Shown here: one piece after another, positions 10,154-29,512 of the stretch
Numbering within the stretch: the stretch's first letter is position 1
Layout of the letters: each line of letters starts with the position of its first letter
DNA from: Cytophagales bacterium
GTDB lineage: Bacteria; Bacteroidota; Bacteroidia; Cytophagales; Cyclobacteriaceae
Length of the DNA stretch: 64,000 nucleotides
Assembly (NCBI GenBank): GCA_017303805.1
Contig: JAFLBQ010000002.1
Span: 1 to 64,000, forward strand
Direction of reading: 5' to 3'
Made by a program: the position numbers and the translations under genes
The notes under the pieces: generated by a model
Databases searched by the model: none
What the model was told of the DNA's origin: nothing
What the model saw: the letters and a program-made list of their open reading frames with translations, nothing else

Positions 10154-10190
10154 CTATTGTTTTAATGTTTTATAGATTTTCTCTTACTAA

Positions 10191-10289
10191 CTCATCTTTC
10201 CCCGATTAAAAATCGAAGCTGGATTTAGCACCTGATAAATCAGGTTGCTAAGGCTTCACAGGGCCAGTCCCTCTGCCTTTCTTGATAAG
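10191..10289 (-). promoter_or_regulatory. SAM-I (S-box) riboswitch aptamer
   Basis: The 99-nt minus-strand element shows the S-box core in order: P1 strand CUUAUC, AAG, the P2 region with GAGGGACUGGCCC, GUGAAGCC, GCAACC, P3, GGUGCUAAAUCCAGC, P4, AAA and the P1 partner GAUGAG. CUGG in the P2 loop can pair with CCAG after P3, the known pseudoknot. It precedes the cystathionine gamma-synthase type gene and is followed by a clear terminator. SAM binding should therefore stop transcription of the metB-like/YeeE/YedE operon. Confidence 0.95.
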
Positions 10290-10311
10290 TAATGTTACAA
10301 AGAACGTTGAG

Positions 10312-10378: not shown

Positions 10379-11161
10379 TCAGGCATACCAGTTTTTCAGT
10401 CTGTTGGGTTCTTTTAAAAAAGCCAACAGGTATTTGTTGTATTGTTCTGCCTGTTCAATCATTGGTAAATGGCCGCACTCATCAATAAACTTTACCTCTG
10501 AGTTTGGTAATAAGTCATGAAAATGCAAAGCCGATTCAGGTGTAGAAATTTTATCATGCAAACCCCACATCAATAAAATCGGGTGATCAATCTTGTTCAG
10601 GAACGAGGTGACTTTAAAATGTTGAGAAGAACGTGCAATACTTCCCAAGGCCAATCGTTTCGGTATGTTCTGCACGGTTGTGAAAATTTCATTCACCATA
10701 TCTTCCGACACACAATCCTTATGAAAAAAAGCATCTTCTATTCTATCCTGAATGTATTCATAATCATCAATGTAAGCTTCCGCTTCGGTAAACGAAGGTT
10801 TATCTAACAAACCAGTGCTGCTGGTTAATATCAACCGATCTACATTCTGTGGATACTGGTGGGTGTACATCAGGGCAACTTGCCCACCCAAGGCATGTCC
10901 AATCAGCGTAACATCTGTAAGCTGATGCCAATCAATAAAATCATGTAACGTTTTAGTCAGGTACTTTACGGTTGTATTTTCAATGGTTAACTCAAACAAA
11001 GGTAAGCGCGGAACAATTACCTTATAGTCAGATTTAAGTACTTCAATAACTGATTTCCACATGGCCAGGTTACCGAACAACCCATGCAACAAAATGATTA
11101 CCGGTCCCTGACCAACTGTTATGTATGCCTGATTATACAAGGGTGGATTCTTTTTCTTCAT
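10379..11161 (-). CDS. Alpha/beta hydrolase
   Basis: This 260-residue cytosolic alpha/beta-hydrolase has the oxyanion segment ILLHGLFGN near residue 24, the region GHALGGQVALMY where the nucleophile elbow is expected, and the late Asp and His in LLMWGLHDKIS and DECGHLPMIEQ. The usual G-x-S-x-G elbow reads G-H-A-L-G-G, so the expected serine nucleophile is replaced by Ala. That raises doubt about ordinary esterase activity. It is the last gene of the unit ATP-grasp/TlpA-like/hydrolase, 5 bases after the TlpA-like gene. Confidence 0.75.
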   Translation of the reverse strand: MKKKNPPLYNQAYITVGQGPVIILLHGLFGNLAMWKSVIEVLKSDYKVIVPRLPLFELTIENTTVKYLTKTLHDFIDWHQLTDVTLIGHALGGQVALMYTHQYPQNVDRLILTSSTGLLDKPSFTEAEAYIDDYEYIQDRIEDAFFHKDCVSEDMVNEIFTTVQNIPKRLALGSIARSSQHFKVTSFLNKIDHPILLMWGLHDKISTPESALHFHDLLPNSEVKFIDECGHLPMIEQAEQYNKYLLAFLKEPNRLKNWYA

Positions 11162-11166
11162 AAATC

Positions 11167-12402
11167 TTAAATCGCATTCTCACTCTCATTTAATAACGTT
11201 GTAACATCTTCATTAAAATGCCGAATAAATTCCTGATAATACTCACCCGTAGCCGGGCCTGAAAATCCGGTATGTATTTTTCGAACCTTCCCTTTACGAT
11301 CTATGATTATAGTGGTTGGGAATGAAAGTACACGATTCAGGGCCGGAAGTTTTTCGCTGGCTTGTGCCTTGTCTGCCAAGCCTGCAAAAAGAATTTCATA
11401 TTCAATATCAAATCGTTTAATAAACTTGCTGATTCTTTCACGGGCAAAGGCAAGATCATCTTTTCGTTCGAAACTAAGCGCTACTATCTCTACACCGCGC
11501 GTCTTATTTTCTTTATACCACGGTGCTAAAAATGCAGCTTCATCCACACAGTTAGGGCACCAGCTTCCCATAATGGTTATTACCACCACTTTGTTCTTAT
11601 ATTTCTCATCCTGTAACGAAACCGGATTACCCGACAAATTCGGAAATGTAAAATCAAGTCTATCATAACCTTCTTTCAAATAGGTAAGCGCATAAGGATC
11701 GGGTAGCCTTGCCGTATCGCTTTTAATAGCCACAAACTGTGTTAAACCTGCAGGCGAAATCAACTCACCGGTTAAATGCAGACTGTCAACAATTTTTGCA
11801 CGCAACAAAGATGGATTGGATCCACTAAACCCGGAGATCTTCAAACTATCACCATCTATCACACCTTGAAAATACCGGAAGTCGCCCGTGGTGGTAAGTA
11901 TAGTACCATTTACCTGTGCTTGATCCTGATTTAACAAGCCTACTGTGTAGTGGGTTTCATTTTTTTCGTTCAGCAGACTTACTGACCACTTCCCTCCGAT
12001 TGAAACTGGCGTGGCGGAGTTGGTATTAAATCGGGAAGCTTGACCGCGGATGGCAGCAAATGGAATACCTTGCTTCCCAGATTGATTTTTCCGGAAGTAT
12101 CCTTTTAACGAATCTCCGGCAAGCTTACCTATTAACAAAGCATCATAAACATCAATAGGAACGATAACCGAGTCACGCTCATACCGAACGCTATCCAATT
12201 GAAATTTCTCTTCTCCGTTTGTCAATAAAACTTTTACAAGTCCTGCAGTATCGTCCTCCACTCTAAAATTGAATGGAATCTCAATGTTTTGTACCGTAAA
12301 GGTTCCGCGCCAGTTACCTATTTGCAGATAGCCCGGTTCTTCTTTGCAGGAAAGAAATACCGAACCAAAAAATAAAATACAAACGATTTTAGTCAGCTTC
12401 AT
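11167..12402 (-). CDS. TlpA-like thioredoxin-fold lipoprotein, paralogue 1
   Basis: The 411-residue protein starts with a lipoprotein signal ending FLSC (Cys19). Two beta-rich repeats of about 100 residues follow; then from about 233 (LPDPYALTYLKEGY) there is a thioredoxin-like domain with GSWCPNC, Cys282 and Cys285. It probably reduces or oxidises thiols in the periplasm. It is clearly paralogous to the product of 18163-19443, sharing LPDPYALT, WCPNC, FLAPW and FPTTIIIDRKG. It lies between the ATP-grasp gene (5 bases upstream) and the hydrolase gene (5 bases downstream). Confidence 0.85.
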   Translation of the reverse strand: MKLTKIVCILFFGSVFLSCKEEPGYLQIGNWRGTFTVQNIEIPFNFRVEDDTAGLVKVLLTNGEEKFQLDSVRYERDSVIVPIDVYDALLIGKLAGDSLKGYFRKNQSGKQGIPFAAIRGQASRFNTNSATPVSIGGKWSVSLLNEKNETHYTVGLLNQDQAQVNGTILTTTGDFRYFQGVIDGDSLKISGFSGSNPSLLRAKIVDSLHLTGELISPAGLTQFVAIKSDTARLPDPYALTYLKEGYDRLDFTFPNLSGNPVSLQDEKYKNKVVVITIMGSWCPNCVDEAAFLAPWYKENKTRGVEIVALSFERKDDLAFARERISKFIKRFDIEYEILFAGLADKAQASEKLPALNRVLSFPTTIIIDRKGKVRKIHTGFSGPATGEYYQEFIRHFNEDVTTLLNESENAI

Positions 12403-12407
12403 GCTAT

Positions 12408-13415
12408 TTATACTTCTTCTTTTTGGAATTCAGGTTCATGATCTATTTGAAACACCGGCTGAAGGCGACTTTCGATATAGTCTACAAGATTTGTGTAAGG
12501 ATTAAATCCAATAATGTTTACGGCATCGGCTACAAAGTTGGAGAGCGCGTTAATGTCATAATAGTGGGGTTCAGCGTGCTCATCCAGTAAATATTCTACA
12601 CCACCCACATCAAGGCGTGCTGTCTTTACAATACGCTCAACATCTTCAATAATCTGTTTGGGTGGATTATATTTTTCTACTTTAACTCCATTGCGGGCGG
12701 CTTCTGCAATGCAAGCTTCTGAATTGGTGTAAGCCGGTACCTCACACAAGTCAGCCGGGCACAGATTAAAACTTTTCCGGGTAGGATAAACCTTTATGGC
12801 ATACAGGAATTTTCCGTTTAGTGTTTCTACCCGCACAATGTGGCCATCTTTTGGCGCCAGGTATTCCTGCACAAGTGCTACCTGATCTGTTCCCAAACTG
12901 ATTTGATTTAAGAAGATAGCCTTTTGCAATGCTTCCTGGGTATCGAACTGAGTAATGCCTGCACCACTTCCACCTATATTGGCCTTTACCAAAACAGGAA
13001 ACTTTAATGCTTTGGCTGCAGCCAGAATCTGGTTAACATGATTTACAATACGCGACTTCGGAAAGCGTAAACCCAATGAAGCCAGTAATCCAACTTGTTT
13101 GGCTTTAGAGATTTCGTAAGACTGTGCCGTTAATCCGTTTATCACAGGCACACCAAGCCGTTCCAGGTGTTCAATGTATTGGGTGGCATAAAAAATACTT
13201 TGGCCATTTCCCCTTACATGAGCGGATGGACTGATTCTGTTGATTACAAGGCTATAGGGTACATCGCGTTCCAAAGGATTGAAGTGATGCTGGGCAGCAT
13301 TCAATCTTACGAACGGGATTCTTCTTTGCTCCAACTCTTCAAACAAAGGCTTAAACCACGATTGATGTTCATAAAATATAGCGATTGGTCGGTTGATAGT
13401 TTTGCTCATACTCAT
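12408..13415 (-). CDS. RimK-like ATP-grasp ligase
   Basis: The 335-residue ATP-grasp protein has an N-terminal domain (IAIFYEHQSWFKPL), a hinge region with ERLGVPVINGLTAQS and SKAKQVGLLASLG, and the ATP-binding part FPVLVKANIGGSGAGI near residue 140. The metal-binding end reads DVGGVEYLLDE and then DINALSNF near residues 275-300. The family joins a carboxylate to an amine or thiol with ATP; the substrate is not predictable. It is the first full-length gene after the S-box-like leader and Cys peptide 1. A truncated homologue is present at 27843-28192. Confidence 0.85.
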   Translation of the reverse strand: MSMSKTINRPIAIFYEHQSWFKPLFEELEQRRIPFVRLNAAQHHFNPLERDVPYSLVINRISPSAHVRGNGQSIFYATQYIEHLERLGVPVINGLTAQSYEISKAKQVGLLASLGLRFPKSRIVNHVNQILAAAKALKFPVLVKANIGGSGAGITQFDTQEALQKAIFLNQISLGTDQVALVQEYLAPKDGHIVRVETLNGKFLYAIKVYPTRKSFNLCPADLCEVPAYTNSEACIAEAARNGVKVEKYNPPKQIIEDVERIVKTARLDVGGVEYLLDEHAEPHYYDINALSNFVADAVNIIGFNPYTNLVDYIESRLQPVFQIDHEPEFQKEEV

Positions 13416-13434
13416 TGAAATTGATTTGAATTTT

Positions 13435-13471
13435 AAAAGGGCGGGTATCCACTTCGCTGAAGATTCCCCGC
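13435..13471 (-). terminator. Terminator-like hairpin between Cys peptide 1 and the ATP-grasp gene
   Basis: On the minus strand GCGGG and CCCGC close a hairpin with an inner CTTC/GAAG pairing, followed by CCTTTT. It starts 56 bases after the stop of the small ORF and ends 19 bases before the ATP-grasp start codon. The position fits an attenuator; the T run is short. Confidence 0.5.
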
Positions 13472-13527
13472 ACCTTTACCCCTCATATACCATGAAGGAG
13501 TTTCTTAAATTGATGGAAGGAGATGCT

Positions 13528-13635
13528 TTAACAACAACAACGCATTATACACGAACCTACAGGTACAGGTTGTAGTTGAAAGCCAGAGGACTTTAATTGT
13601 CCAAATTGTGTTGTGGTAATTCTCTTTTTATTCAT
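13528..13635 (-). CDS. 35-residue leader or precursor peptide 1, ending Cys-Cys-Cys
   Basis: The minus-strand ATG at 13635 opens a 35-codon frame starting MNKKRITTT and ending GSCIMRCCC-stop. The last seven residues fit C-x3-C-C-C, the pattern also found in the peptide at 21669-21791. The three cysteine codons are all TGT. The start lies 9 bases after the closing stem of the S-box-like RNA, and a terminator-like hairpin follows before the ATP-grasp gene. It could be a cysteine-sensing attenuation peptide or a Cys-rich ribosomal peptide. No homologue is known to me. Confidence 0.6.
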   Translation of the reverse strand: MNKKRITTTQFGQLKSSGFQLQPVPVGSCIMRCCC

Positions 13636-13644
13636 AACAGAAAA

Positions 13645-13747
13645 TTTATAATTCCCTTTTGTGGGCAGGTTGTAGCACTTATTCAGCTCTTATACTGAAA
13701 GTTGCCAGGGATTCTTTGAGCCTGTCTCTCCTCCCGTTCTTTATAAA
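13645..13747 (-). promoter_or_regulatory. Divergent S-box-like riboswitch candidate 1
   Basis: The minus-strand RNA keeps the S-box plan with different sequence. P1 is UUUAUA/UAUAAA, followed by AAGAA; P2 is GGGA/UCCC enclosing the small hairpin GAGACAGGCUC; then GGCAAC; P3 is CUUUCAG with CUGAAUAAG; then GUGCUACAACCUG; P4 is CCC/GGG. The P2 loop CAGG can pair with CCUG after P3, at the place of the SAM-I pseudoknot (CUGG with CCAG in the canonical copy at 10191-10289). The predicted transcription start falls at its 5' edge. The ligand is not proven; SAM or a relative is the first guess. Confidence 0.75.
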
Positions 13748-13754
13748 CGTGGCG

Positions 13755-13784
13755 TAAACATACCTAACATTTTTTAAATATCAA
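13755..13784 (-). promoter_or_regulatory. Promoter of leader 1
   Basis: On the minus strand TTG (13784-13782), a 19-base spacer and TATGTTTAC (-7 box 13762-13755) match the Bacteroidetes promoter. The -33 element abuts the palindrome at 13786-13810, so a bound protein there should block RNA polymerase. Confidence 0.7.
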
Positions 13785-13785
13785 T

Positions 13786-13810
13786 AAAGTCTATAGATTT
13801 TATAGACTTT
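13786..13810. promoter_or_regulatory. Palindromic operator 1 (AGTCTA-N9-TAGACT)
   Basis: This is a perfect inverted repeat with 10-bp arms AAAGTCTATA and TATAGACTTT and a 5-base centre GATTT. It touches the stop codon of the TonB receptor gene and lies directly upstream of the leader 1 promoter. The same core occurs at 21938-21958 and, degenerate, at 28229-28249 and 27793-27813. It is probably the site of a dimeric transcription factor encoded elsewhere. Confidence 0.75.
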
Positions 13811-16689
13811 TAAAAACTAAAAGTCAATCTTCCATAGTAAAATGCCCCATTAAAGCCGAATTGTTGACCGGCAGCTGTACCATAAGGCAAAGCACCGGTT
13901 TGGTTATTGGCAACAATCTGTTCATCGGGGTACACATCAAACAGATTATTAGCTCCAGCTGTTATTGATACAAAAGGTGCCAACTGGTAACTTAAGGTTA
14001 AATCAGAAACCCATTTGCTGGTAAAGGTCTGATCGCGCGCACCGGTGGGATTGTCCAGGTTGTTTTGGCTAGCGAAGGATGTGTATTCTCCAAAACGGGT
14101 AAGACGCACGAAAGGTGTAAGTTTTTTATAGGTATAGCTGGCGCTCAGAATAATTTTATCTTGAGGCGTGCCCCTTTCGTACCGCCCCTTTTGAAGTCTG
14201 TCAAAGAATATTCGTTCGGACAAATAGTTGCGAACCTCCGTTGATGCGCCTTCCACTAATCCAACGGGTGGTTTTACATTCACTACCTCGGTTCGTGTAA
14301 AATTGGATGCCACCGATACATTTAAGATACCTTTACCAATAGCAGACCGATACGATAAAATTGCATCAATTCCTCGCGTGCGCGTATCGATCGAATTACT
14401 AAAGAACTGTGCCGAGTTAACATCTGGATAGGCACTTAGTAAATTTGCTACTATAGCAGCTGCACCCTGTACAACAGGATCTGAACTTGAAGTTGTCGTT
14501 TGAAAAAATCCTGTAAGTGTAACCCGGTCGTCAATATCAATTTGATAGGCATCAACAGTAAGATTGAAATCATTAAACAATCTGGCGGTAGCCCCGGCAC
14601 TTAGGTTAAATGATGTTTCGGCCTTAAGTTGAGGAACACCAAATGCCTTTGTAACCGCACTTTCGTTGTTTGCCACAGCCGAGAGAAGCAATGAACCATC
14701 GCCTTGCGGAATAGAAGTAGTGGCTGAATAATATTGTTGCTGCAAAGAAGGTGCACGAAAGCCTGTGCTTACCGCCCCACGCAAGGCAATATCATCTGTA
14801 AGTTTAATTCGTGTAGAAGCTTTCCAGGTTAGCTTATCTCCAAAATCGCTATAGTTTTCATAACGCAGCGCACCTGTTAACAATATGCTGTTAGTGATGT
14901 CATACTCCAGATCGCCATATAAACCGATGTTACTTCTTGTTTCGTCTTGTTCATCGCCTGGTTGATAACCGGGAAAAGCCTGGGCTCCTGCCGGTGTAAT
15001 GCCTGTGGCTGTGCCGCCAACTAGGGTTACATATGTTCTTCCATAACCTTTATACGATGCTTCTTCGCCCGCTTCAATCTGATAATTTTCAATTCTGTGT
15101 TCGGCACCAAAGGCAACACCTAAAGATTGGCCAAAACTTAGTTCATTAAACTTTCTTACAAAGCCGAGGTTGGTTGTGTTTTGGGAAAACAGAAGTTTGC
15201 CAGAGTAAAACCGTGTTGGACTTGAAGCTCCTAATGAAGCATTTAAGGTATTCTCTACATAATACTGCACACTATTACTTCCAAAAGTATTACTTAAATC
15301 CACATCCCAGCCCGATTTATTTCCACGTAAGCCAGCGGTAAAAGACTTATCGTTAATACGCGCTACGTTCTCTGGCAAAAAGCCATCCGGGTATAGTTCA
15401 GGAACGTACCTGCTGGAGATACTGCGAATGTTACTCGTACCGTTCGGAAAACGATACGCATTATTCGGGCTGTTACTTTCTCGGCTGCCTATTCCACCAA
15501 AAGCATATACTTCGGCACCTAAGCCCAAGGGTATTGCAGCATTAAAAAATAATCCAGATCCGTTTTGAGCTGCATTGCCACTGGCTACCGAACTGTAGCG
15601 ATCTACAGAAAGTTCTTTTGCATCCACTTCCTCATTAGGTGTTGCCGCTGCATACGAATACCAATACTGTCGTGCATTCGTTAAGCGATTAGTAAGTTCA
15701 TAATAACCACCGCGCCTGGTGCCTTCACGTTGATTAATTTGAGCTGTCAAATTGAGGTATCCCCCATTTCCAAAACCGAAACCATAATTGATATCAGTTT
15801 GAAACAAGGTTCCATCTGTAGTATTTCTGAATTTAGTGCTGTGTGCACCGGCTGTAGTGGTCACACTAATGTTCTCGGTTTCCTTTTTAAGCACAATGTT
15901 TACTACGCCTGCAATGGCATCAGAACCATATTGTGCGGCTGCGCCATCGCGCAATACTTCAATGCGTTCGATCGCTCCTACGGGAATAGAGTTAAAATCC
16001 ACCGCTACCGAGCCTTGTGCCGGTGTGCCCAATACGTTGACCAACGCGCTACCGTGTCTTCTTTTTCCATTGATCAACACCAGCGTTTGGTCTGGAGCCA
16101 CACCCCGTAAAGCAACAGGATCTATATGTGCCGAACCATCGCCACCTGGCTGACGGTTAGAACTAATGGAAGGAGCTACAAAGTTTAATATCTGAGTGAT
16201 GTCTACCTGGCCGGTTGCCCGAATTTCCTTGGCTTGAATAATATCTACAGGCACCGGTGTATCGATTCGCGACCGGCCAGAAGTTGCACGTGAACCAATA
16301 ATCACAACTTCTTCTGAAAGTAAAGAGCCCTCCTCCAAAGAAAAATTAAGTCTTGTGTTATCACCAGCTTTAACCTCAGCTTGTAACTCTTTGGTTTGAT
16401 AACCGACAAAACTAATCCGAACTTTGGCCGTGCCTGCAGGAGCATTCAATGTAAAATCTCCATTCTGATCCGTTATCGTTCCCAGGGAAGTTCCCACCAG
16501 AACTACCGTTGCTCTGGGAAGAGGTGACGAATTAGCGTCCGTAACTTTACCGGACAGGGAACCTGTTTGCTGAGCATTTACATTCCCTGAGATAAAAATA
16601 AATAACAAGAGTAAAAGCAAAATCTGTACTCTTCGTTCCACCCATTCTATGAGCGGAGATCCTTTGATAATAAGTAATGTTGTTTTCAT
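13810..16689 (-). CDS. TonB-dependent outer-membrane receptor
   Basis: The 959-residue protein has a signal peptide (to about residue 40, NVNAQ), a carboxypeptidase-D-like regulatory domain (GSLSGKVTDANSSPLPRATV), and a plug domain with ALRGVAPDQTLVLINGKRRHG and IERIEVLRDGAAAQYGSDAI. A long beta-barrel ends in an aromatic terminus (YYGRLTFSF). It imports an unknown large or scarce ligand with TonB energy. It is last in the operon with the diheme peroxidase, DsbD-N-like, TlpA-like and dipeptidase genes, 11 bases after the peroxidase. No SusD partner is next to it. Confidence 0.92.
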   Translation of the reverse strand: MKTTLLIIKGSPLIEWVERRVQILLLLLLFIFISGNVNAQQTGSLSGKVTDANSSPLPRATVVLVGTSLGTITDQNGDFTLNAPAGTAKVRISFVGYQTKELQAEVKAGDNTRLNFSLEEGSLLSEEVVIIGSRATSGRSRIDTPVPVDIIQAKEIRATGQVDITQILNFVAPSISSNRQPGGDGSAHIDPVALRGVAPDQTLVLINGKRRHGSALVNVLGTPAQGSVAVDFNSIPVGAIERIEVLRDGAAAQYGSDAIAGVVNIVLKKETENISVTTTAGAHSTKFRNTTDGTLFQTDINYGFGFGNGGYLNLTAQINQREGTRRGGYYELTNRLTNARQYWYSYAAATPNEEVDAKELSVDRYSSVASGNAAQNGSGLFFNAAIPLGLGAEVYAFGGIGSRESNSPNNAYRFPNGTSNIRSISSRYVPELYPDGFLPENVARINDKSFTAGLRGNKSGWDVDLSNTFGSNSVQYYVENTLNASLGASSPTRFYSGKLLFSQNTTNLGFVRKFNELSFGQSLGVAFGAEHRIENYQIEAGEEASYKGYGRTYVTLVGGTATGITPAGAQAFPGYQPGDEQDETRSNIGLYGDLEYDITNSILLTGALRYENYSDFGDKLTWKASTRIKLTDDIALRGAVSTGFRAPSLQQQYYSATTSIPQGDGSLLLSAVANNESAVTKAFGVPQLKAETSFNLSAGATARLFNDFNLTVDAYQIDIDDRVTLTGFFQTTTSSSDPVVQGAAAIVANLLSAYPDVNSAQFFSNSIDTRTRGIDAILSYRSAIGKGILNVSVASNFTRTEVVNVKPPVGLVEGASTEVRNYLSERIFFDRLQKGRYERGTPQDKIILSASYTYKKLTPFVRLTRFGEYTSFASQNNLDNPTGARDQTFTSKWVSDLTLSYQLAPFVSITAGANNLFDVYPDEQIVANNQTGALPYGTAAGQQFGFNGAFYYGRLTFSF

Positions 16690-16700
16690 AAAATGTTCTT

Positions 16701-17678
16701 TTAATTGTTTGTTTTTTTTGTTTTTAGAAATTGGTCATCAGTTAATGCATGTAAAAATTCTTCGAGGTCATTTATTTCTTGCTCTGATAGATTTAAGGGT
16801 TCACTAAGGGATAAATCGCGATGAATCGCACCAGAAATTATTTCATCAGGTCGATTATAATAATCCAATACCTCACGCAACGTGCTGAACATTCCGTTGT
16901 GCATGTAAGGGGCGGTGAGCGCAACATTTCGTAAACCTGGAATTCGAAAATGGCCAAGCTGTGAACTATCCTGTGTTACCTCAAATCGTCCCGGGTCATC
17001 CAATTCTTTGCCATTGTAAAGCCCAATGTTTTTAAACCGATCGGCTGTAAAGTCATCTCCGGCATGACAGTTGGCACAATTCGCTTTACCAATAAATAAA
17101 AGTCGACCCCGAATGGCGGACTCATTCATCGCGCTTTCATCGCCATCAATAAAACGGTCATAAGGCGAGTCGGCTGTTTCCAGCGTGCGTTCAAATTCTG
17201 CAATGGCCTTAGCTAATAAATCTGCCGTGGGTGCTGACTTAAATAATTTTCTAAACACCCTACCATACATTTCATCGCGTTGTAAACGATCTACCGCTTC
17301 GATTATAGGTAAATTCATTTCGTCTGGCGACTCAATCGGCTTAAGGGCTTGCTCTTCAAGAGAATTTACGCGCCCATCCCAAAATAATTGCAACCGGCCA
17401 CTCAGGTTGGCCGCTGAAGGTGCATTTCGTTTTGTCGGAATTCCATTGATGCCCACACTGAAAGCGGTGTTATCTGCAAAAGCAAATTCGCGCTTATGGC
17501 AAGAGGCACAACTTATCGTTCGGTCTTTAGACAAAATTGGATCAAAAAATAATTTCTCGCCTAGTTGGGCAACAGTGGCAGGTTCTCTTTCGTGCACATG
17601 GACGGTATGGAAGCTGGTGAGCGATCCCGCCAAGGCAATAAAGAGCACTATCAACAAGGTTGACAAGAATGTTTTCAT
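16701..17678 (-). CDS. MauG/cytochrome c peroxidase-type diheme protein
   Basis: The 325-residue periplasmic diheme cytochrome has a signal peptide and two heme c motifs, CASCH at 57-61 and CANCH at 201-205. The context KLFFDPILSKDRTISCASCHKREF and the C-terminal APYMHNGMFSTLREVLDYYN are typical of the bacterial cytochrome c peroxidase/MauG family. Members either reduce peroxide or oxidise protein side chains. Location beside a TonB receptor and thiol-redox genes could mean peroxide defence or oxidation of a substrate handled by this operon; the latter is inference. Confidence 0.88.
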   Translation of the reverse strand: MKTFLSTLLIVLFIALAGSLTSFHTVHVHEREPATVAQLGEKLFFDPILSKDRTISCASCHKREFAFADNTAFSVGINGIPTKRNAPSAANLSGRLQLFWDGRVNSLEEQALKPIESPDEMNLPIIEAVDRLQRDEMYGRVFRKLFKSAPTADLLAKAIAEFERTLETADSPYDRFIDGDESAMNESAIRGRLLFIGKANCANCHAGDDFTADRFKNIGLYNGKELDDPGRFEVTQDSSQLGHFRIPGLRNVALTAPYMHNGMFSTLREVLDYYNRPDEIISGAIHRDLSLSEPLNLSEQEINDLEEFLHALTDDQFLKTKKTNN

Positions 17679-17696
17679 ATCGTTTGGCTAATTATA

Positions 17697-18140
17697 CTAT
17701 AGCTGAAAAGTTTCGCGAAAGGGAATGCATTGACCGTCCTTTGCGTTGCAATACTGTCCTGAAATAATTCCACGAATCACAGGCTTGTCCTTTAGAATTT
17801 TGATTCGTTGCCGAAACTCCGCTTTTGCGGAAAAGTATGTCACGTCTGCCTCCCATGTAGCATCATACTTTTTTGATGCATTGATGGGTTGAAGCTTTTC
17901 CACAACCAAATAGGAATCATCAGCAACCCATTCAATGTGCGTGGGTATCGGCCCAAGCTCTTCGGATACGTCTGAAGAATACAAATACCAGTTCTTTTTT
18001 ATACCAGCGCTAAAAATCAATTCGGTTTCAGCCTTAGCAACAGGCTGTGCACTAAATCGAAACGACCAGCGAGCAATTTCTTTCTCTGGATCAGGCGGAG
18101 CCAGGTAAAGAAAAAAAAGAATGATACTTATACTCTTCAT
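17697..18140 (-). CDS. Free-standing DsbD N-terminal-like domain protein
   Basis: The 147-residue exported protein has a short signal (to about residue 14) and an immunoglobulin-like domain resembling the N-terminal domain of DsbD. KKNWYLYSSDVSEELGPIPT matches the family, and the paired cysteines Cys131 and Cys138 lie in GQYCNAKDGQCIPF. In DsbD this domain takes electrons from the membrane part and passes them to periplasmic thioredoxins. No DsbD membrane domain is nearby, so its reductant is unknown; the adjacent TlpA-like protein (22 bases upstream) is a plausible partner. Confidence 0.75.
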   Translation of the reverse strand: MKSISIILFFLYLAPPDPEKEIARWSFRFSAQPVAKAETELIFSAGIKKNWYLYSSDVSEELGPIPTHIEWVADDSYLVVEKLQPINASKKYDATWEADVTYFSAKAEFRQRIKILKDKPVIRGIISGQYCNAKDGQCIPFRETFQL

Positions 18141-18162
18141 CGGTATCTTATTTTTTTAGTAC

Positions 18163-19443
18163 TTACTTACCTGCTCCAGCCGCTAGTGTCGTTTGATATT
18201 CTGCTGGCACTGGTTCAGCAATAAGTTCATCCAGGGTTTTGTTCCACTGCTTTTCATACTTCTTAAAGTATTTACCGGTAATCTCACCGGTATAGCCGGT
18301 ATGAATCTGCCGCACATTACCTTTCCGATCGATGATAATTGTGGTCGGGAATGCCATCATCTTATTAAGTGCTGCAAATTTTTCAGAGGCTACTTTCTTG
18401 TCGGCAATGCCACCAAAAAGTATATCGTATTCAATACCATACTTTTCTTTTAGCTTACCCAATGTGTAGCGTGCATACTCAAGGTCATCTTTCTGCTCAA
18501 AGCCCACGGCAATCGCTTCTACCCCGCGATTTTTATTTTCGCGAAACCAGGGCGCAAGGAAAGTAGTTTGATCCGTACAATTAGGGCACCAGGTACCGAT
18601 GATATCGATGATTACCACTTTACCCTTGTACTTTTCATCATTCAGGGTGACCGTTTTTCCATCTAAGTCTGGCAGACTAAAATCAAATTTGGTGTAACCT
18701 TCTTTTAAAAAAGTAAGTGCATACGGATCGGGCAACTCGGCATCGGCTTCTGCTTCCGCTTCAAATTTTTGATTGAGGTAAATGCCCAACCCAATTTCTC
18801 CTTGTAGTTTTTTATCAGCCGTAATTTTTCCTTTCACAAAAAATGGACTTGGGCCAGTAAAGCCAGAAAGATAAAACTCATCGCCTTGCACAGTACCTTC
18901 CAACTCGCGTGTGTCGCCTACCACCGACAAGATCACACCCGTAAGTTTGTTTCCCTTTTGTTTAAATAAGGCAACACGGTCAGCTGACTTATCTTTGCTA
19001 ATAATGTTCACTCTCCATTTACCTGAGAGATTGGCTATAGGTTTTACATCCTTGCCGGGCTCCACAAAGCGATACTTCTTTCCATGCTCAGCCACAAATG
19101 GAAGTGAGTTGCCCCGAAAATTAGGAACCAGACTTTTATAAACTCCTGAAAGGCGACCGTCAGTTTCTACTTTGGCGATTAACGCAGCATCATACGTATT
19201 CATCTTTACGAAAATAGAATCGCTGCCACGCGGAATAATCACAAATTCATCTCTGCGCGTACCGTTAATCAAAATGAGTTTTAATGCTTTTGATTCATGT
19301 TTTATTTCAAAATTGAATGGTACTTTATTTTCGCTTAGAGTGAACTCGCCACGCCACAAACCATTTTTGGCAATTACAATCGGATCGGCAAACGTTAGCT
19401 GGCTACTAAATGCCAGCAGAAAAAATAGAATTTTTGTTTTCAT
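18163..19443 (-). CDS. TlpA-like thioredoxin-fold protein, paralogue 2
   Basis: The 426-residue periplasmic protein begins with a cleavable signal (SQLTFADP). Two beta-rich repeats are followed by a thioredoxin domain with GTWCPNC and a cis-proline region FPTTIIIDRKG. It is a paralogue of 11167-12402 but lacks that protein's lipobox, so one copy is probably lipid-anchored and the other soluble. The C-terminus is longer (ends LAAGAGK). The gene sits between the dipeptidase and the DsbD-N-like gene, spaced 18 and 22 bases. Confidence 0.85.
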   Translation of the reverse strand: MKTKILFFLLAFSSQLTFADPIVIAKNGLWRGEFTLSENKVPFNFEIKHESKALKLILINGTRRDEFVIIPRGSDSIFVKMNTYDAALIAKVETDGRLSGVYKSLVPNFRGNSLPFVAEHGKKYRFVEPGKDVKPIANLSGKWRVNIISKDKSADRVALFKQKGNKLTGVILSVVGDTRELEGTVQGDEFYLSGFTGPSPFFVKGKITADKKLQGEIGLGIYLNQKFEAEAEADAELPDPYALTFLKEGYTKFDFSLPDLDGKTVTLNDEKYKGKVVIIDIIGTWCPNCTDQTTFLAPWFRENKNRGVEAIAVGFEQKDDLEYARYTLGKLKEKYGIEYDILFGGIADKKVASEKFAALNKMMAFPTTIIIDRKGNVRQIHTGYTGEITGKYFKKYEKQWNKTLDELIAEPVPAEYQTTLAAGAGK

Positions 19444-19461
19444 GTTATAGTTGGTTTAGGT

Positions 19462-20724
19462 TTAGTTTAAAGCCACTTTAATTTGTTGTTGTTTAGCCAC
19501 CGCTTCTACTTCTTTGAATACGCGAAGGAAATTACCACCCCATAGTTTTCTGATTTCTTCTTCGGTGTAGCCACGTTTTAATAGTTCGCGGGTTACGTTA
19601 GGCGCTTCGGCTACACTGTTAAAGCCGGTTACACCACCACCGTGATTGAAGTCGCTGCCGAAGCCCACATGATCTATACCAATCAATCGCACGGCATAAT
19701 CTACCGCATCGAGGTAATCTGTCAGGTGGCTATAGCGCCATTCGTTTCTTGAAAATTCACGATAAGCATCCAGATGTTTTTGATACGTAGCCGCATCTAA
19801 TTTTTGGCGCGGATCATCTTTCCCGTACGTGATGCCAAACGGCTCCCACACTTGTTTCAGATATGCTTTTGTAAACTCAGAATTTTGCCGCAGGTAAGGT
19901 GTAAATGCAGCAATGTGTACTACACCTCCACTAGCAGCAATAGCTTTCAACTCTTCATTGGTAAGATTGCGGGAATTTTCAACACGACCATACACAGCGG
20001 AGTGCGATGCAATAACCGGGGCCTTGCTTAGTTGTATGGCTTGAAAAACTCCGGCTGGAGTTAGTTGCGATACATCGATAATGATGCCTAACCGGTTTAA
20101 CTCATTGATTCCTTTTTTACCAAGATCGGTTAAACCTTTATTCTCATTAGGTTTGTCACCAAAGGCAGCATTGGGTCGCGAAGAATCTGCCCAATCGTTA
20201 TTGCCTACGTGGGTAAATCCAAATACGCGAACACCTTCTTTGTAATACTTTTCGATGAGCGTAAGATCTTGCCCGAGCGAAAGCGCATTCAGAAAGCTAA
20301 GCAAGATGGCGTGTTTTCCTTTGGCAGGGATTCGCTCCAGGTCTTGGGATGTGTATGCAAACTCTAATCGATCGGGGTGTTTAGTAACCCATTGTTTAAC
20401 ACTGGCAAGTTTATTATCAACTTGCTTGCGAGCCAACACGATGTTTTCTGGTGAACGCTTTAGCGGATCAGCAAACAGTGCGATGGTTGCCACATCGAGT
20501 TCGCCCCGTTCAAGCTTGGGTAAATCAAGTTGATCTATGGTTTCTTTTCCAGCCTCATTTCCAACTGCATTAAAATCGCTGCGCAGATCAATATGCGCAT
20601 CAAGGGTGAGTAGATTTTTATGAATAGCCCGTGCCCGTAAAGAATCTGCTTGTTTGTTTTGATTTTGAGCTATTGCCGGAACGCTTAACACCAGCACGGC
20701 AACTGTTAGTAGTTTTAGTTTCAT
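19462..20724 (-). CDS. Membrane dipeptidase (renal dipeptidase family)
   Basis: The 420-residue exported metallopeptidase of the M19 family has a signal peptide ending near AIAQ and the first metal site HIDLRSDF. Further matches are VSQLTPAGVFQAI, the second metal His in IASHSAVYG, and DHVGFGSDFNHGG near the C-terminus. M19 enzymes cleave dipeptides, including Cys-Gly from glutathione breakdown, and D-amino-acid dipeptides. In this thiol-oriented operon a Cys-containing dipeptide is a reasonable guess only. The 216 bases upstream hold a terminator (20871-20915) and a poor promoter-like match. Confidence 0.88.
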   Translation of the reverse strand: MKLKLLTVAVLVLSVPAIAQNQNKQADSLRARAIHKNLLTLDAHIDLRSDFNAVGNEAGKETIDQLDLPKLERGELDVATIALFADPLKRSPENIVLARKQVDNKLASVKQWVTKHPDRLEFAYTSQDLERIPAKGKHAILLSFLNALSLGQDLTLIEKYYKEGVRVFGFTHVGNNDWADSSRPNAAFGDKPNENKGLTDLGKKGINELNRLGIIIDVSQLTPAGVFQAIQLSKAPVIASHSAVYGRVENSRNLTNEELKAIAASGGVVHIAAFTPYLRQNSEFTKAYLKQVWEPFGITYGKDDPRQKLDAATYQKHLDAYREFSRNEWRYSHLTDYLDAVDYAVRLIGIDHVGFGSDFNHGGGVTGFNSVAEAPNVTRELLKRGYTEEEIRKLWGGNFLRVFKEVEAVAKQQQIKVALN

Positions 20725-20870
20725 AGTTGTTTCTGTTTCCTGTTTTGAGATTTATAATCATCCAGGAGCAGCAACACATGAGCGCGGTAAAGGCTATAAA
20801 AATTCTTTAATAAGCCAACGAGATTTATTACCTTACACCTGTGTTAACTTGCCTCTGGCGGGTTGATTTC

Positions 20871-20915
20871 AAAAAAGGGGGAGGGACTTCTAAACTTTCG
20901 CGAGCAAGAATCCCT
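20871..20915 (-). terminator. Intrinsic terminator after the YceI gene
   Basis: On the minus strand AGGGATTCT...AGAAGTCCCT forms a strong imperfect hairpin with an inner CTT/AAG pairing, then CCCCC and six T. It begins 26 bases after the YceI stop. It should end or attenuate the leader 2 transcript before the dipeptidase. Its sequence resembles dispersed hairpins seen in Cytophagales genomes, so it may be a repeat copy. Confidence 0.75.
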
Positions 20916-20940
20916 CTTCCCTTTACACCTAGTCTACCCT

Positions 20941-21558
20941 CTAGGCGCCTGTCTGAGCATTGGCTACCAGCTTAAGGTCCAGTTCAAAATCATCATAGAT
21001 TGCCTTATCTCCCAAGTTGTCAAAGAAACTCTTAGACCCATAGCGAATATCATATTTGGTTCGGTCAACTATAATCTTGGCCGTTGCTGTCACTTTCTTT
21101 CCATCGTTAACAATAGTGGCTGGAAATTCAACATCATTGGTTTTTCCTTTGATGGTTAATTTTCCTTTAACTAAATATTCGTTACCCGATTTTTGGGTTA
21201 AAGAAGTTAACACAAAAGATGCTTTGGGAAATTTGGTTGTGCCAAAGAAATCATCGCTTTTTAAATGCCCTACTAACTTGGCGTTACTATCTTTATCAGT
21301 AATATCCGTTACTGTTAAAGAATTAACATCAATTTCAAAAGTACCTTCTTTAACAAGTTTCCCATCGGCTGTCAACTCGCCCGATGCGATGGCAATGGTG
21401 CCTGTGTGTTGGCCCGTTACTTTTTTGCCCGTCCAAGTCAAGGAACTTGCTTGCGGATCTACTTTAAATTTAGCGAGTGCCGGAGGTTCGGTGAATGAGA
21501 AAAAAGTAATGGCAAACAGTGCCAATACTGCGAGACTGAAAATGGTTTTAGTTTTCAT
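20941..21558 (-). CDS. YceI family periplasmic lipid-binding protein
   Basis: The 205-residue protein has a signal peptide and the YceI lipocalin-like domain: FKVDPQASSLTWTGKKV at the start, HLKSDDFFGTTKFPKASF in the middle and IVDRTKYDIRYGSKSFFDN near the end. YceI proteins bind long isoprenoid or amide lipids in the periplasm and often accompany oxidative-stress genes. It is the first full-length gene after S-box-like leader 2 and Cys peptide 2, and is separated from the dipeptidase by a terminator. Confidence 0.92.
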   Translation of the reverse strand: MKTKTIFSLAVLALFAITFFSFTEPPALAKFKVDPQASSLTWTGKKVTGQHTGTIAIASGELTADGKLVKEGTFEIDVNSLTVTDITDKDSNAKLVGHLKSDDFFGTTKFPKASFVLTSLTQKSGNEYLVKGKLTIKGKTNDVEFPATIVNDGKKVTATAKIIVDRTKYDIRYGSKSFFDNLGDKAIYDDFELDLKLVANAQTGA

Positions 21559-21598
21559 AATTGTATTTGATTAAGTATTAAATTGGTTTTTGATAATT

Positions 21599-21623
21599 AA
21601 AAATTTGAGTGGCGCCAGCCTCA
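21599..21623 (-). terminator. Terminator-like hairpin between Cys peptide 2 and YceI
   Basis: On the minus strand TGAG and CTCA close a GC-rich hairpin (21606-21623) followed by AAATTTTT. It stands between the small ORF stop (21669) and the YceI start (21558), as the hairpin at 13435-13471 does in leader 1. The stem is short, so the call is moderate. Confidence 0.4.
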
Positions 21624-21668
21624 CGGATTTGTGAAGTGGACATAAGCTTTAATAGCCTAAAAGGGAGA

Positions 21669-21791
21669 TCAACAACAACAAGTGGTCGGGCATACCGACA
21701 TGACTTCAAAACCTATAGAGGATTTCGAAGTAAGAACTTTGTGAAGTCCGTGTTGTTCAGTTTGAAGTGTGTTCGTTTTCATGTGTTTCAT
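21669..21791 (-). CDS. 40-residue leader or precursor peptide 2, ending Cys-Cys-Cys
   Basis: The minus-strand ATG at 21791 opens 40 codons starting MKHMKTNTLQ and ending MSVCPTTCCC-stop; a second ATG at codon 4 could also serve. The C-terminus repeats the C-x3-C-C-C pattern of peptide 1, while the rest is similar only in size and in being polar and basic. All three final Cys codons are TGT. The ATG is one base from the P1 stem of the S-box-like RNA, so ligand binding could hide the start. It may be a cysteine sensor or a Cys-rich ribosomal peptide; I recognise no homologue. Confidence 0.6.
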   Translation of the reverse strand: MKHMKTNTLQTEQHGLHKVLTSKSSIGFEVMSVCPTTCCC

Positions 21792-21792
21792 A

Positions 21793-21897
21793 TTTATAGT
21801 TCCCATTAGTTGGGCAGGTTGTGGCACTTATTTAATAATTGCTTATTAAAAGTTGCCAGGGGATTTTCGAGCCTGTCTCTCCCCCCTTCTTTATAAA
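21793..21897 (-). promoter_or_regulatory. Divergent S-box-like riboswitch candidate 2
   Basis: The element has the same order as candidate 1. P1 is UUUAUA/UAUAAA; then AAGAAGG; P2 is GGGGA/UCCCC around GAGACAGGCUC; then GGCAAC; P3 is CUUUUAAUAA with UUAUUAAAUAAG; then GUGCCACAACCUG; P4 is CCC/GGG. P3 and the P2 bases differ from candidate 1 but stay paired, which is compensatory change. The loop CAGG can pair with CCUG as in candidate 1. An extended P1 would include the AUG of the peptide gene, which suggests control of its translation. Confidence 0.75.
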
Positions 21898-21904
21898 TGT
21901 GATG

Positions 21905-21934
21905 TAAAGGTAAAAACTATTTTCAATTTATCAA
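21905..21934 (-). promoter_or_regulatory. Promoter of leader 2
   Basis: On the minus strand TTG (21934-21932), a 19-base spacer and TACCTTTAC (-7 box 21912-21905) are arranged exactly as in leader 1. The predicted transcription start coincides with the 5' edge of the riboswitch candidate. Confidence 0.7.
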
Positions 21935-21935
21935 T

Positions 21936-21960
21936 AAAGTCTATAGATTTTATAGACTAT
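21936..21960. promoter_or_regulatory. Palindromic operator 2 (AGTCTA-N9-TAGACT)
   Basis: The core 21938-21958 is identical to operator 1: 8-bp arms AGTCTATA and TATAGACT around GATTT. It abuts the leader 2 promoter and lies 54 bases before the divergent gene at 22012, so it could control both directions. Confidence 0.75.
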
Positions 21961-23119: not shown

Positions 23120-24430
23120 ATGATAAAAAAAGAAACGGGTCGCTTTTGGGCATTGCTTCCTTTGATAACATTTCTTGTTGTCTACTTGGCAACCTCACTC
23201 ATATTAAATGATTTTTATAAAATGCCCCTTTTGGTGGCTTTTCTATTCTCAGCTATTGTTGGCTTTGCTCAGTATCCAAAACTATCTTTTGCCAGTAAAA
23301 CAGAAACGTTTTCAAAAGGGGCCGGAGACTCTGGCATCATGCTGATGATTCTGATTTTTTTATTGGCTGGCGCTTTCGCGGAATTAAGTAAAACAATCGG
23401 TGCGGTTCAATCCACCATTAACTTTGCACTCTCCTATCTATCGCCCAGTTTACTAATAGCTGGTTTATTTCTAACCGCGTGTTTCATTTCGCTATCGCTC
23501 GGCACTTCGGTAGGCACTGTGGTAGCACTGGCACCCATTGCCGTAGGTCTAAATGAAACTATATCGGGAAGCTTGGCCATTAACCTTGGAGCCGTAGTGG
23601 GTGGCGCCATGTTTGGCGATAATCTTTCTATGATTTCTGATACTACCATTGCGGCTACCCGCACACAAGGTGTAGAAATGCGCGATAAGTTTAAGGTCAA
23701 TTTTATGATTGTACTCCCGGCCGCGATAATTACGTTTATCATATACGCCTTCAGTAACGATCTGGCTCAACCTGTCAGTAATGCGACTTACGAATATTCC
23801 ATTATTAAAATATTACCCTACATTTTTATTTTCGTAGCAGCCCTGCTTGGTATGAATGTAATCTGGGTTTTGATTTCCGGCATTATGCTTACCCTGCTGA
23901 TAGGTCTTTATTATGATCTTGGATTTTGGTCTGCCTTGGGCGCACTTAATTCCGGAATGGCTTCTATGTTTGAATTAAGCATTGTTTGTATTTTGATTGG
24001 AGGCATTGTTGGTTTAATCCAATATTATGGTGGTATTGATTTTATTATACATCATGTATCGCGTAAAATAAAAAATGCGCGGGGCGGAGAATTAGGAATT
24101 TTTTCGTTGACTGCATTGGTTAATATTGCCTTGGCCAATAATACCATTACCATTTTAATTGTTGGACCCTTGGCAAAAACTATTGCCGATAATAATAATG
24201 TCGATCCAAAACGAAGCGCCAGTATTCTAGATACCACCTCATGTTTTATTCAAGGATTGCTTCCGTATGGTGCTCAACTTTTGGCTGCCGTTGCTGTTTC
24301 AGCCAATCAGGTAACTGCCTTTGAAATTATGAGGTATCTCTACTATCCCTATTTAATAGGAATTAGTACCTTATTATTTATTCTATTCCGCAAACAAAAA
24401 TTTAATTCCACACTTTCAATTGCTACCTAA
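23120..24430 (+). CDS. NhaC-family Na+/H+ antiporter
   Basis: The 436-residue integral membrane protein has about 11-12 hydrophobic segments. SLGTSVGTVVALAPIAVGL, GAMFGDNLSMISDTTIAATRTQG and ANNTITILIVGPLAKTIAD match the NhaC/Na+-H+ antiporter superfamily. NhaC relatives exchange sodium, malate/lactate or small organic substrates for protons or ions. It overlaps nothing upstream, and the next gene starts one base after its stop. Confidence 0.85.
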   Translation: MIKKETGRFWALLPLITFLVVYLATSLILNDFYKMPLLVAFLFSAIVGFAQYPKLSFASKTETFSKGAGDSGIMLMILIFLLAGAFAELSKTIGAVQSTINFALSYLSPSLLIAGLFLTACFISLSLGTSVGTVVALAPIAVGLNETISGSLAINLGAVVGGAMFGDNLSMISDTTIAATRTQGVEMRDKFKVNFMIVLPAAIITFIIYAFSNDLAQPVSNATYEYSIIKILPYIFIFVAALLGMNVIWVLISGIMLTLLIGLYYDLGFWSALGALNSGMASMFELSIVCILIGGIVGLIQYYGGIDFIIHHVSRKIKNARGGELGIFSLTALVNIALANNTITILIVGPLAKTIADNNNVDPKRSASILDTTSCFIQGLLPYGAQLLAAVAVSANQVTAFEIMRYLYYPYLIGISTLLFILFRKQKFNSTLSIAT

Positions 24431-28276: not shown

Positions 28277-29512
28277 ATGGACTACTCACTCAATTTTGTA
28301 GCCTTTATCATTCCGGCCTTCTTCCTGTTTTTGGGGCTTGAATACTGGCTGGCGAAAAAAAAAAGTAAGACCCCACTATTCACTTATGAAAGCTCTATTA
28401 CCAATATTTCCGTGGGTATTGCAGAGCGGTTATTGAATTTGTTGATAACCGGAAGTTTCTATGGGCTCTACTATTATCTATTCGAACACTTTGCCTTATG
28501 GGAAATACCCAACGTTTGGTGGGTATGGATTTTACTTTTACTAGCAACAGATTTGGTGTGGTACTGGTATCATCGTCTGGGCCATGAAGTAAATCTGTTT
28601 TGGGGAGCCCACATTGTGCATCACCAAAGTGAAGAGTTTAACTACACAGTTTCTGCGCGCATAACCACCATTCAAGCTGTTGTTCGGAATATATTTTGGT
28701 GCCTATTACCATTGGCAGGATTTCACCCCGCGATGGTTATTGCCATTTTGGTTGTTCATGGAACTTACTCCTTTTTTACGCATACCCAAATAATCGGCAA
28801 ACTCGGCTGGCTCGAGCATATTCTTATTACCCCCTCCCATCATGGAGTTCATCATGCCTCTAATCCAAAATACCTCGACAAAAACTATGGCGATATCTTT
28901 GTGTTTTGGGACAAGCTTTTCGGCACTTTTCAGGTTGAAGATGAAAAGGAAAAGCCGATTTACGGTATCACGCATCCGTTAAAAAGTAACAGTTTCCTCT
29001 GGCAACACTTTCATTACTATGCCGAGTTATTTGAGGCCTGCAGACGAAGCGGCAGCGTTTGGAAATCGTTTAAAATTGTTTTTGGTAAACCTGATAGCGT
29101 TGATGCTACCATTCGAAAAGATCTGGAGAAAAAACTATTGCCTGCTAAGGCGCCTTTCCGATCAACCTTTAGATTCAAGGCGTATCTTAATATTCAGATC
29201 ATCACCAGTCTGATTAGTCTGTTTTTGTTTACCCTATATTTTAATCAATTAACTTCAGTAGATATCCTTTTTATAAGCATACTTATCCTGATTACGCTAA
29301 TCAATTGTGGTGCCATGCTGGAGCAACAAAAATGGGTATTTCAAGCCGAGGTAGTCCGGCTACTTCTTGTTTGTACTTACACAAGTATATTGGAACAAAG
29401 TATCGGACTTTTTATTGTAAGTATTCTTCTCATTCTCGCATTTTCAACACTTGAACTTGTCGAAAGCAAGTATTACAAGTTCGTTTACGATCATGAAGAT
29501 TCCAAAACATAG
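28277..29512 (+). CDS. Sterol desaturase/fatty acid hydroxylase family protein
   Basis: The 411-residue membrane di-iron enzyme has several spans and the histidine boxes YHRLGHEVN, HIVHHQSEEFN and HHGVHHASNPK, the eight-His pattern of the fatty acid hydroxylase superfamily. The C-terminal 120 residues add about four hydrophobic segments, a layout known from alkylglycerol monooxygenase-like members. The substrate is probably a membrane lipid. The upstream palindrome links it to the Cys-peptide leaders. The next gene starts 20 bases before its stop. Confidence 0.85.
   Translation: MDYSLNFVAFIIPAFFLFLGLEYWLAKKKSKTPLFTYESSITNISVGIAERLLNLLITGSFYGLYYYLFEHFALWEIPNVWWVWILLLLATDLVWYWYHRLGHEVNLFWGAHIVHHQSEEFNYTVSARITTIQAVVRNIFWCLLPLAGFHPAMVIAILVVHGTYSFFTHTQIIGKLGWLEHILITPSHHGVHHASNPKYLDKNYGDIFVFWDKLFGTFQVEDEKEKPIYGITHPLKSNSFLWQHFHYYAELFEACRRSGSVWKSFKIVFGKPDSVDATIRKDLEKKLLPAKAPFRSTFRFKAYLNIQIITSLISLFLFTLYFNQLTSVDILFISILILITLINCGAMLEQQKWVFQAEVVRLLLVCTYTSILEQSIGLFIVSILLILAFSTLELVESKYYKFVYDHEDSKT

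Follow-up and report, generated by a model that had tools for sequence, protein, structure and literature searches.

Two adjacent operons of a Cytophagales bacterium share a leader with a SAM-I riboswitch and a cysteine-ending upstream reading frame and are candidate sulfur-scavenging units

A 64,000-nucleotide stretch of DNA from a Cytophagales bacterium (assembly GCA_017303805.1, contig JAFLBQ010000002.1, positions 1 to 64,000 of the forward strand), referred to here as the window, carries two operons that lie head to tail on the minus strand behind one and the same type of leader. The YceI operon, the upstream one of the two, encodes in order a YceI-like protein, an M19 dipeptidase, a TlpA-like protein (TlpA-like 2), a DsbD-N-like protein, a MauG-like diheme protein and a TonB receptor. 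The ATP-grasp operon encodes an ATP-grasp protein, a further TlpA-like protein (TlpA-like 1) and an alpha/beta hydrolase, and the gene after it is metB-like and has an S-adenosylmethionine (SAM) riboswitch of its own. A first-pass annotation of the window had named these gene families and had placed a TlpA-like paralogue in each unit; Pfam matches bear out the families, and the two TlpA-like proteins are paralogues with 42% identity. Its coordinates for the pair of operons are right, and the riboswitch of the metB-like gene falls just outside them (Table 1).

The leaders of both operons consist, in this order, of a palindrome, a promoter, a SAM-I riboswitch, a short upstream open reading frame (uORF) that ends in Cys-Cys-Cys-stop (CCC) and a hairpin. 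When aligned, they agree at 48 of 63 positions over the palindrome and promoter, at 86 of 104 over the riboswitch and at 59 of 109 over the uORF. The palindromes are identical and the predicted promoters similar, with the common pattern TTG and TAnnTTTAC, 19 nt apart, read from the alignment; this pattern resembles the Bacteroidetes consensus. The RNA that had at first been called S-box-like is genuine SAM-I: in a covariance-model search all three aptamers of the window score above the RF00162 gathering score of 44.4 bits, and the failing base pairs of the two operon aptamers fall within P4 and the end of P1. Both operon aptamers are plain SAM-I and are predicted to bind SAM. The CCC peptides were found in both units as described, but the hairpin only in part, since that of the ATP-grasp leader is terminator-like and that of the YceI leader is short and is not.

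Table 1. Features of the two operons and of the adjoining metB-like leader, in window coordinates.
Feature	Position	Strand	Evidence or remark
Palindrome copy 2, YceI operon, candidate Rrf2 site	21938..21958	.	AGTCTATA-N5-TATAGACT
Promoter, YceI operon, predicted	21904..21934	-	TTG, 19 nt, TACCTTTAC; leader alignment
SAM-I riboswitch, YceI operon	21791..21899	-	RF00162, 72.3 bits
Leader-peptide uORF, YceI operon, 37 codons, end C-P-T-T-C-C-C-stop	21669..21782	-	second in-frame ATG at 21791
Short hairpin between uORF and yceI, not terminator-like	21615..21639	-	kept in relative G008, one-sided change
YceI-like protein	20941..21558	-	PF04264
M19 membrane-type dipeptidase	19462..20724	-	PF01244
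TlpA/ResA-like thioredoxin protein 2	18163..19443	-	PF00578; N-terminal half without Pfam family
Stand-alone DsbD N-terminal-like domain	17697..18140	-	PF11412; C-x6-C pair read from translation
MauG/CCP-type diheme protein	16701..17678	-	PF03150 (CCP_MauG)
TonB-dependent receptor	13810..16689	-	PF00593/PF07715
Palindrome copy 1, ATP-grasp operon	13788..13808	.	21 nt, identical to copy 2
Promoter, ATP-grasp operon, predicted	13754..13784	-	TTG, 19 nt, TATGTTTAC; leader alignment
SAM-I riboswitch, ATP-grasp operon	13643..13749	-	RF00162, 66.9 bits
Leader-peptide uORF, ATP-grasp operon, 35 codons, end C-I-M-R-C-C-C-stop	13528..13635	-	
Terminator-like hairpin, U-rich 3' arm, ATP-grasp leader	~13435..13477	-	-12.3 kcal/mol
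RimK-like ATP-grasp protein (GRASP)	12408..13415	-	PF08443, family alignments
TlpA/ResA-like thioredoxin protein 1	11167..12402	-	PF00578
Alpha/beta hydrolase	10379..11161	-	PF00561
Third SAM-I riboswitch, before metB-like gene, without Cys uORF	10189..10291	-	RF00162, 89.2 bits

Five SAM-I riboswitches were found in the genome as a whole: the three in the window, one before a metH-type gene, the best family matches of which are methionine synthase, and one before OsmC and metY genes (metY 666.9 bits, family cut-off 495.1 bits). The OsmC and metY riboswitch is also trailed by a Cys-rich uORF, and that of the metB-like gene, with no CCC uORF, serves as an internal contrast. The combination of riboswitch and uORF was followed in 163 RF00162 matches, namely 74 of 111 from the own genome, genus and order together with 89 among the matches listed for the family, the class and beyond. 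A uORF was counted if it had 10-80 codons, a start no more than 12 nt before or 40 nt after the aptamer end and at least three Cys in its last 12 codons. Such a uORF follows 34 of the 163 riboswitches. In the controls the counts are 17 of 3260 for dinucleotide shuffles, 2 of 163 for reverse complements and 0 of 163 for stretches taken 400 nt downstream, a comparison that supports the dual sensor, aptamer plus cysteine codons, of the first-pass annotation. The passes comprise 29 of 74 riboswitches from the own genome, genus and order and, among the matches listed, 5 of 52 from the same family or class; of these five, one (L182) was judged to be chance and three others come from one family. The riboswitch and the predicted cysteine leader ORF thus recur together among relatives as one composite element; named strains of Hymenobacter, Pontibacter and Chryseolinea carry it, which makes it open to experiment.

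The Cys uORF tracks a single riboswitch subtype, that with UUUAUA in P1 (28 of 37, vs 6 of 126 among the rest; Fisher p 4.6e-18), and five of the six Cys-uORF riboswitches outside this group look like the subtype by eye. It is absent from all 45 metH-like and all 20 metB-like leaders of the sample. With L182 dropped, every one of the 33 Cys-uORF leaders has an in-frame ATG 6-12 nt past the aptamer and a uORF of 35-53 codons, whereas an ATG in any frame at +6 to +12 occurs in 16 of 129 leaders without a Cys uORF. The Cys codons concentrate in the last seven positions and use both spellings (TGT:TGC = 122:57). Only the frame and these terminal codons are kept across leaders; between the window and relative G008, in ungapped comparison, the codon changes in the peptide body are 18 non-synonymous and 2 synonymous in one leader and 8 and 1 in the other. 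Because the terminal Cys codons are kept while the peptide body drifts, it looks as though the codons are read rather than the peptide used. By best tblastn match within 1.5 kb, the gene downstream is metY-like for 30 of the 34 Cys-uORF leaders, and ATP-grasp, yceI, a TonB receptor and another gene for one each.

The first-pass annotation had staked its proposal on the leader module keeping company with these gene families in other genomes, and there it does. A scan of named genomes for the ATP-grasp family returned 322 relatives, of which the best 80 were analysed. At 82 ATP-grasp loci a covariance search found 54 riboswitch matches, four of them metB-like leaders. Among the 50 others the Cys test was passed by 44 (30 of 1000 shuffles), a run of at least three Cys occurred in 39 (14 of 1000), and the uORFs start with GTG in 30 and with ATG in 17. 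Forty-six of the 50 stand before ATP-grasp, in one case with yceI first, and 43 of these 46 pass the Cys test; left out of the 46 are both leaders of L076 and those of L098 and L111. A strict regular expression for CCC-stop upstream of ATP-grasp matched at 19 of 83 loci. The looser criterion of at least two Cys was discarded as uninformative, since it is satisfied by 457 of 1000 shuffles as well as by 49 of the 50 leaders.

In 73 of the 80 named loci a luciferase-like monooxygenase follows ATP-grasp on the same strand, within 300 nt in 67. The one monooxygenase that was scored has SfnG as its best NCBIfam match (240.5 bits, cut-off 382.95). The closest relatives of the window genome have TlpA-like and hydrolase genes after ATP-grasp instead; one of the relatives (L042) has YceI, ATP-grasp, TlpA and hydrolase genes in a row, and Chryseolinea serpens (L076) combines the two ATP-grasp versions in a single cluster that also includes YceI and an Rrf2 gene. 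As an observation apart, the pair of ATP-grasp and SfnG/SsuD-like monooxygenase spans Bacteroidota, Gemmatimonadota and Planctomycetota in the named loci (e.g. L076:5983-8000).

A third layer of control may act through the palindrome. Without mismatch, the 21-mer occurs in the genome only at the two operons; with one mismatch it precedes a TonB receptor-DUF2490-TauE operon, and a copy with two mismatches, exact in the 19-nt core, lies between an Rrf2 gene, the only one found in the genome, and a 1-Cys peroxiredoxin gene. A palindromic site is thereby common to several sulfur-related genes, with a regulator nearby, as in a regulon, the weak sites standing at chance level. Of 80 related loci, 13 hold sites with at most three mismatches, which mostly lie immediately before these genes or before their riboswitch; the control, the same pattern reversed, gave no site in 927,177 bases. 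The Chryseolinea serpens cluster with Rrf2 has three weaker sites (2-3 mismatches). The palindrome is accordingly a candidate site of the single Rrf2 (CymR/IscR-like) regulator. FA_hydroxylase (28277-29512) was considered as a further target and rejected, its site having three mismatches and thus belonging to the weak sites. Relatives of this protein recur near ATP-grasp or hydrolase genes at 7 of 83 loci (two on one contig), once directly behind them (L042). A one-mismatch copy of the core was also noted at C7:304526-304544, about 12 kb from the metY leader of the same genome.

The RNA past the uORF is more folded than expected. Over 64 leaders, the 120 nt that follow have a mean z of -1.20 +/- 0.16 relative to shuffles, and pairing of the Cys-codon segment with the RNA beyond it is slightly stronger than in shuffles (mean z -0.71 +/- 0.14). 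None of 25 shuffles reaches the energy of the hairpin in the ATP-grasp leader, which is kept in two relatives (G008/L073, the same locus as L035, and L074). A separate hairpin, with the loop RGUGACR, stands past the poly-Cys uORF in 14 metY leaders (that of the own genome on contig C7, L005:1815-1874, and 13 relatives). Its cells are paired to 93.5%, with at most 42.3% in sliding controls, four of its pairs have two-sided changes (reached by 23 of 500 shuffles), 13 cells are of this kind (0 of 500), and in the 10 of these loci that were scanned no Rfam match to it was found.

Taken together, these observations make it probable that both operons serve sulfur scavenging and are controlled by sulfur limitation, with a SAM riboswitch acting as the gate for a leader peptide through which cysteinyl-tRNA is read. 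The sulfur-starvation scavenging regulon that had been one of the first suggestions gains support from MetY, TauE and the CymR/IscR-like Rrf2 protein and, in relatives, from the SfnG/SsuD-like monooxygenase. Gating of the leader peptide by the riboswitch is likely on comparative grounds: SAM binding would lock P1 and block or hide the start of the leader ORF, which would be translated when SAM is low; if cysteinyl-tRNA is low as well, the ribosome would stall on the terminal Cys codons, and the RNA beyond them would permit expression of the operon. Full expression would then require low SAM and low cysteine together, and the leader would sense sulfur metabolism at both ends. The Rrf2 regulator would act at the palindrome, just upstream of the -33 box. 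The operon proteins (TonB receptor, M19, TlpA, DsbD-N-like and ATP-grasp) would take up, process and reduce a nutrient that is an organosulfur compound or a disulfide; to judge by the family names, M19 cleavage, thiol redox reactions of TlpA and DsbD-N and uptake by TonB would suit a disulfide, a peptide or an organosulfur compound.

Several results weigh against this interpretation. Enrichment of terminator-like hairpins is modest (18 of 64 leaders at an empirical p of at most 0.1; mean z -0.52 +/- 0.24), and nothing terminator-like stands above shuffles in the YceI leader. Folding of 13 metY leaders with the ribosome's position masked, either over the Cys codons or over the stop, gave mixed results, some in the wrong direction; one shared switching helix was rejected on this inconsistency, and no switch is claimed. 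The Cys uORF was found after none of the 37 SAM riboswitches outside the class among the matches listed, it is missing from 9 of the 37 riboswitches of the UUUAUA-P1 subtype, and 40 of the metY-like leaders sampled lack it (35 of other subtypes, 5 of UUUAUA-P1). Palindrome sites with at least two mismatches are no more frequent in the genome than the control; the genome-wide counts (4 vs 2 and, with two mismatches, 29 vs 26) are so close that the site beside the Rrf2 gene has to be argued from its position. Finally, the monooxygenase has no match in the window genome, which carries ATP-grasp, so that here the partner most indicative of C-S cleavage is lacking.

Among the other explanations, the one that survives best, although we consider it unlikely, is that the two sensors simply add up, a cysteine attenuator (or translational coupling through the uORF) acting at one step and the SAM riboswitch at another. 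The same genome does contain SAM leaders without a Cys uORF, before the metB-like and metH genes, and the masked folds of the metY leaders gave no shared switching helix, as independent sensors would allow; but the short distance of 6-12 nt between aptamer and uORF start in all 33 leaders is what a gate would need, and the association of the Cys uORF with one riboswitch subtype also speaks against independent sensors. Quite improbable is a role of the operons in copper or redox homeostasis, with sulfur control present for another reason: TlpA, DsbD-N, MauG, YceI and TonB proteins belong to families that suit periplasmic redox or copper work, but a near-copy of the palindrome precedes the operon of a TauE-type gene, ATP-grasp genes are accompanied by a monooxygenase from a family that cleaves C-S bonds, and the neighbours under riboswitch control are metB-like and metY genes. 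The first suggestion, that the operons make, oxidise or export a thiol compound or a Cys peptide, or yield a metal-binding peptide, finds no support, since the CCC peptides drift, mostly precede metY and carry their cysteines in the last codons. It is hardly credible that they are functional products (a precursor of a ribosomally synthesized and post-translationally modified peptide with ATP-grasp as maturase, a thiol metallophore or a metal-sensing nascent peptide), as C-x3-CCC at the C-terminus of both window peptides and the closeness of ATP-grasp, diheme protein and TonB receptor might suggest, because the peptide body changes freely between sister genomes and shows no conserved leader and core, poly-Cys leaders mostly stand before metY-like genes, neither CCC peptide has an NCBIfam match, ATP-grasp scores 18.5 bits with a cut-off of 230 for the grasp-with-spasm maturase TIGR04192, the diheme protein scores 219.7 bits with a cut-off of 362.85 for MbnH (TIGR04039; no search for an MbnP partner was made), and cysteines at the last residues would still sit in the exit tunnel at termination.

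A wider claim can be put forward, to which we give slightly less than even credence: a two-input RNA gate, in which a SAM riboswitch governs initiation of a cysteine-codon leader peptide and which opens sulfur genes only when SAM and cysteinyl-tRNA are both low, may recur across the order and in some families of the class beyond it, may in the window stand under a third, protein-sensed Rrf2 layer, and may drive metY and a new organosulfur pathway marked by the ATP-grasp/flavin monooxygenase pair, which in Gemmatimonadota and Planctomycetota occurs, as far as seen, without the leader.

Some further features of the genes were noted. The N-terminal halves of the TlpA-like proteins (about 240 residues) have no Pfam match at 0.001 and by eye resemble two repeats. 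Matches to the DsbD_N domain in relatives lie mostly within open frames of about 550-860 codons, as in full-length DsbD. Window positions 23120-24430 encode a Na+/H+ antiporter-family protein, which may be a MetT-like methionine transporter; among relatives (L036, L040), its homologues are found next to the metB-like gene.

There are precedents both for riboswitches joined to a translated leader ORF and for leaders with cysteine codons. The Salmonella mgtA leader joins a metal-sensing RNA to a proline-codon leader peptide; its inputs are Mg2+ and proline, whereas here they would be SAM and cysteine. Poly-cysteine leader ORFs of mycobacteria, cysteine-responsive by the reported title of a 2020 study by Canestrari, are said to be leaderless and to have no riboswitch. 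They share with the leaders described here a short ORF with a run of Cys, but belong to another phylum; the excerpted text of PMC13236596 cites them. SAM-I (S-box; RF00162) provides the same aptamer, but in the designs described in the excerpt of PMC2258182 P1 contains the ribosome binding site or is followed by a terminator, whereas the first element after the aptamers described here is a poly-Cys leader ORF. uORFC-8-2, upstream of cysS in Rhodobacterales, has tandem Cys codons and is a proposed attenuator (PMC8632094, in part); it differs in having two Cys codons, another gene and another class, with no aptamer described in that part of the source. The metE and ppe2 leaders of M. tuberculosis combine a B12 riboswitch with a translated uORF (PMC11260477, in part); the ligand is other than SAM, and the ORF is not presented there, in the text excerpted, as an amino-acid sensor. 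The likeness to CymR/IscR-type regulators consists in a protein of the Rrf2 family whose gene adjoins a copy of the palindrome, and the protein scores below the cut-offs of both CymR (70.0 vs 195 bits) and IscR (71.1 vs 207.55 bits). The sulfur-scavenging monooxygenases SfnG and SsuD are the neighbour family of the ATP-grasp genes, but by score the neighbour is not SfnG proper. The open-licence literature searched gave no description of a SAM riboswitch combined with a cysteine leader, or of the ATP-grasp/monooxygenase pair. The module offers a way into sulfur starvation in Bacteroidota and points to the ATP-grasp/monooxygenase pair; in it a riboswitch and a leader-peptide attenuator, each a textbook sensor, stand in a fixed order and would jointly evaluate two products of the same nutrient.

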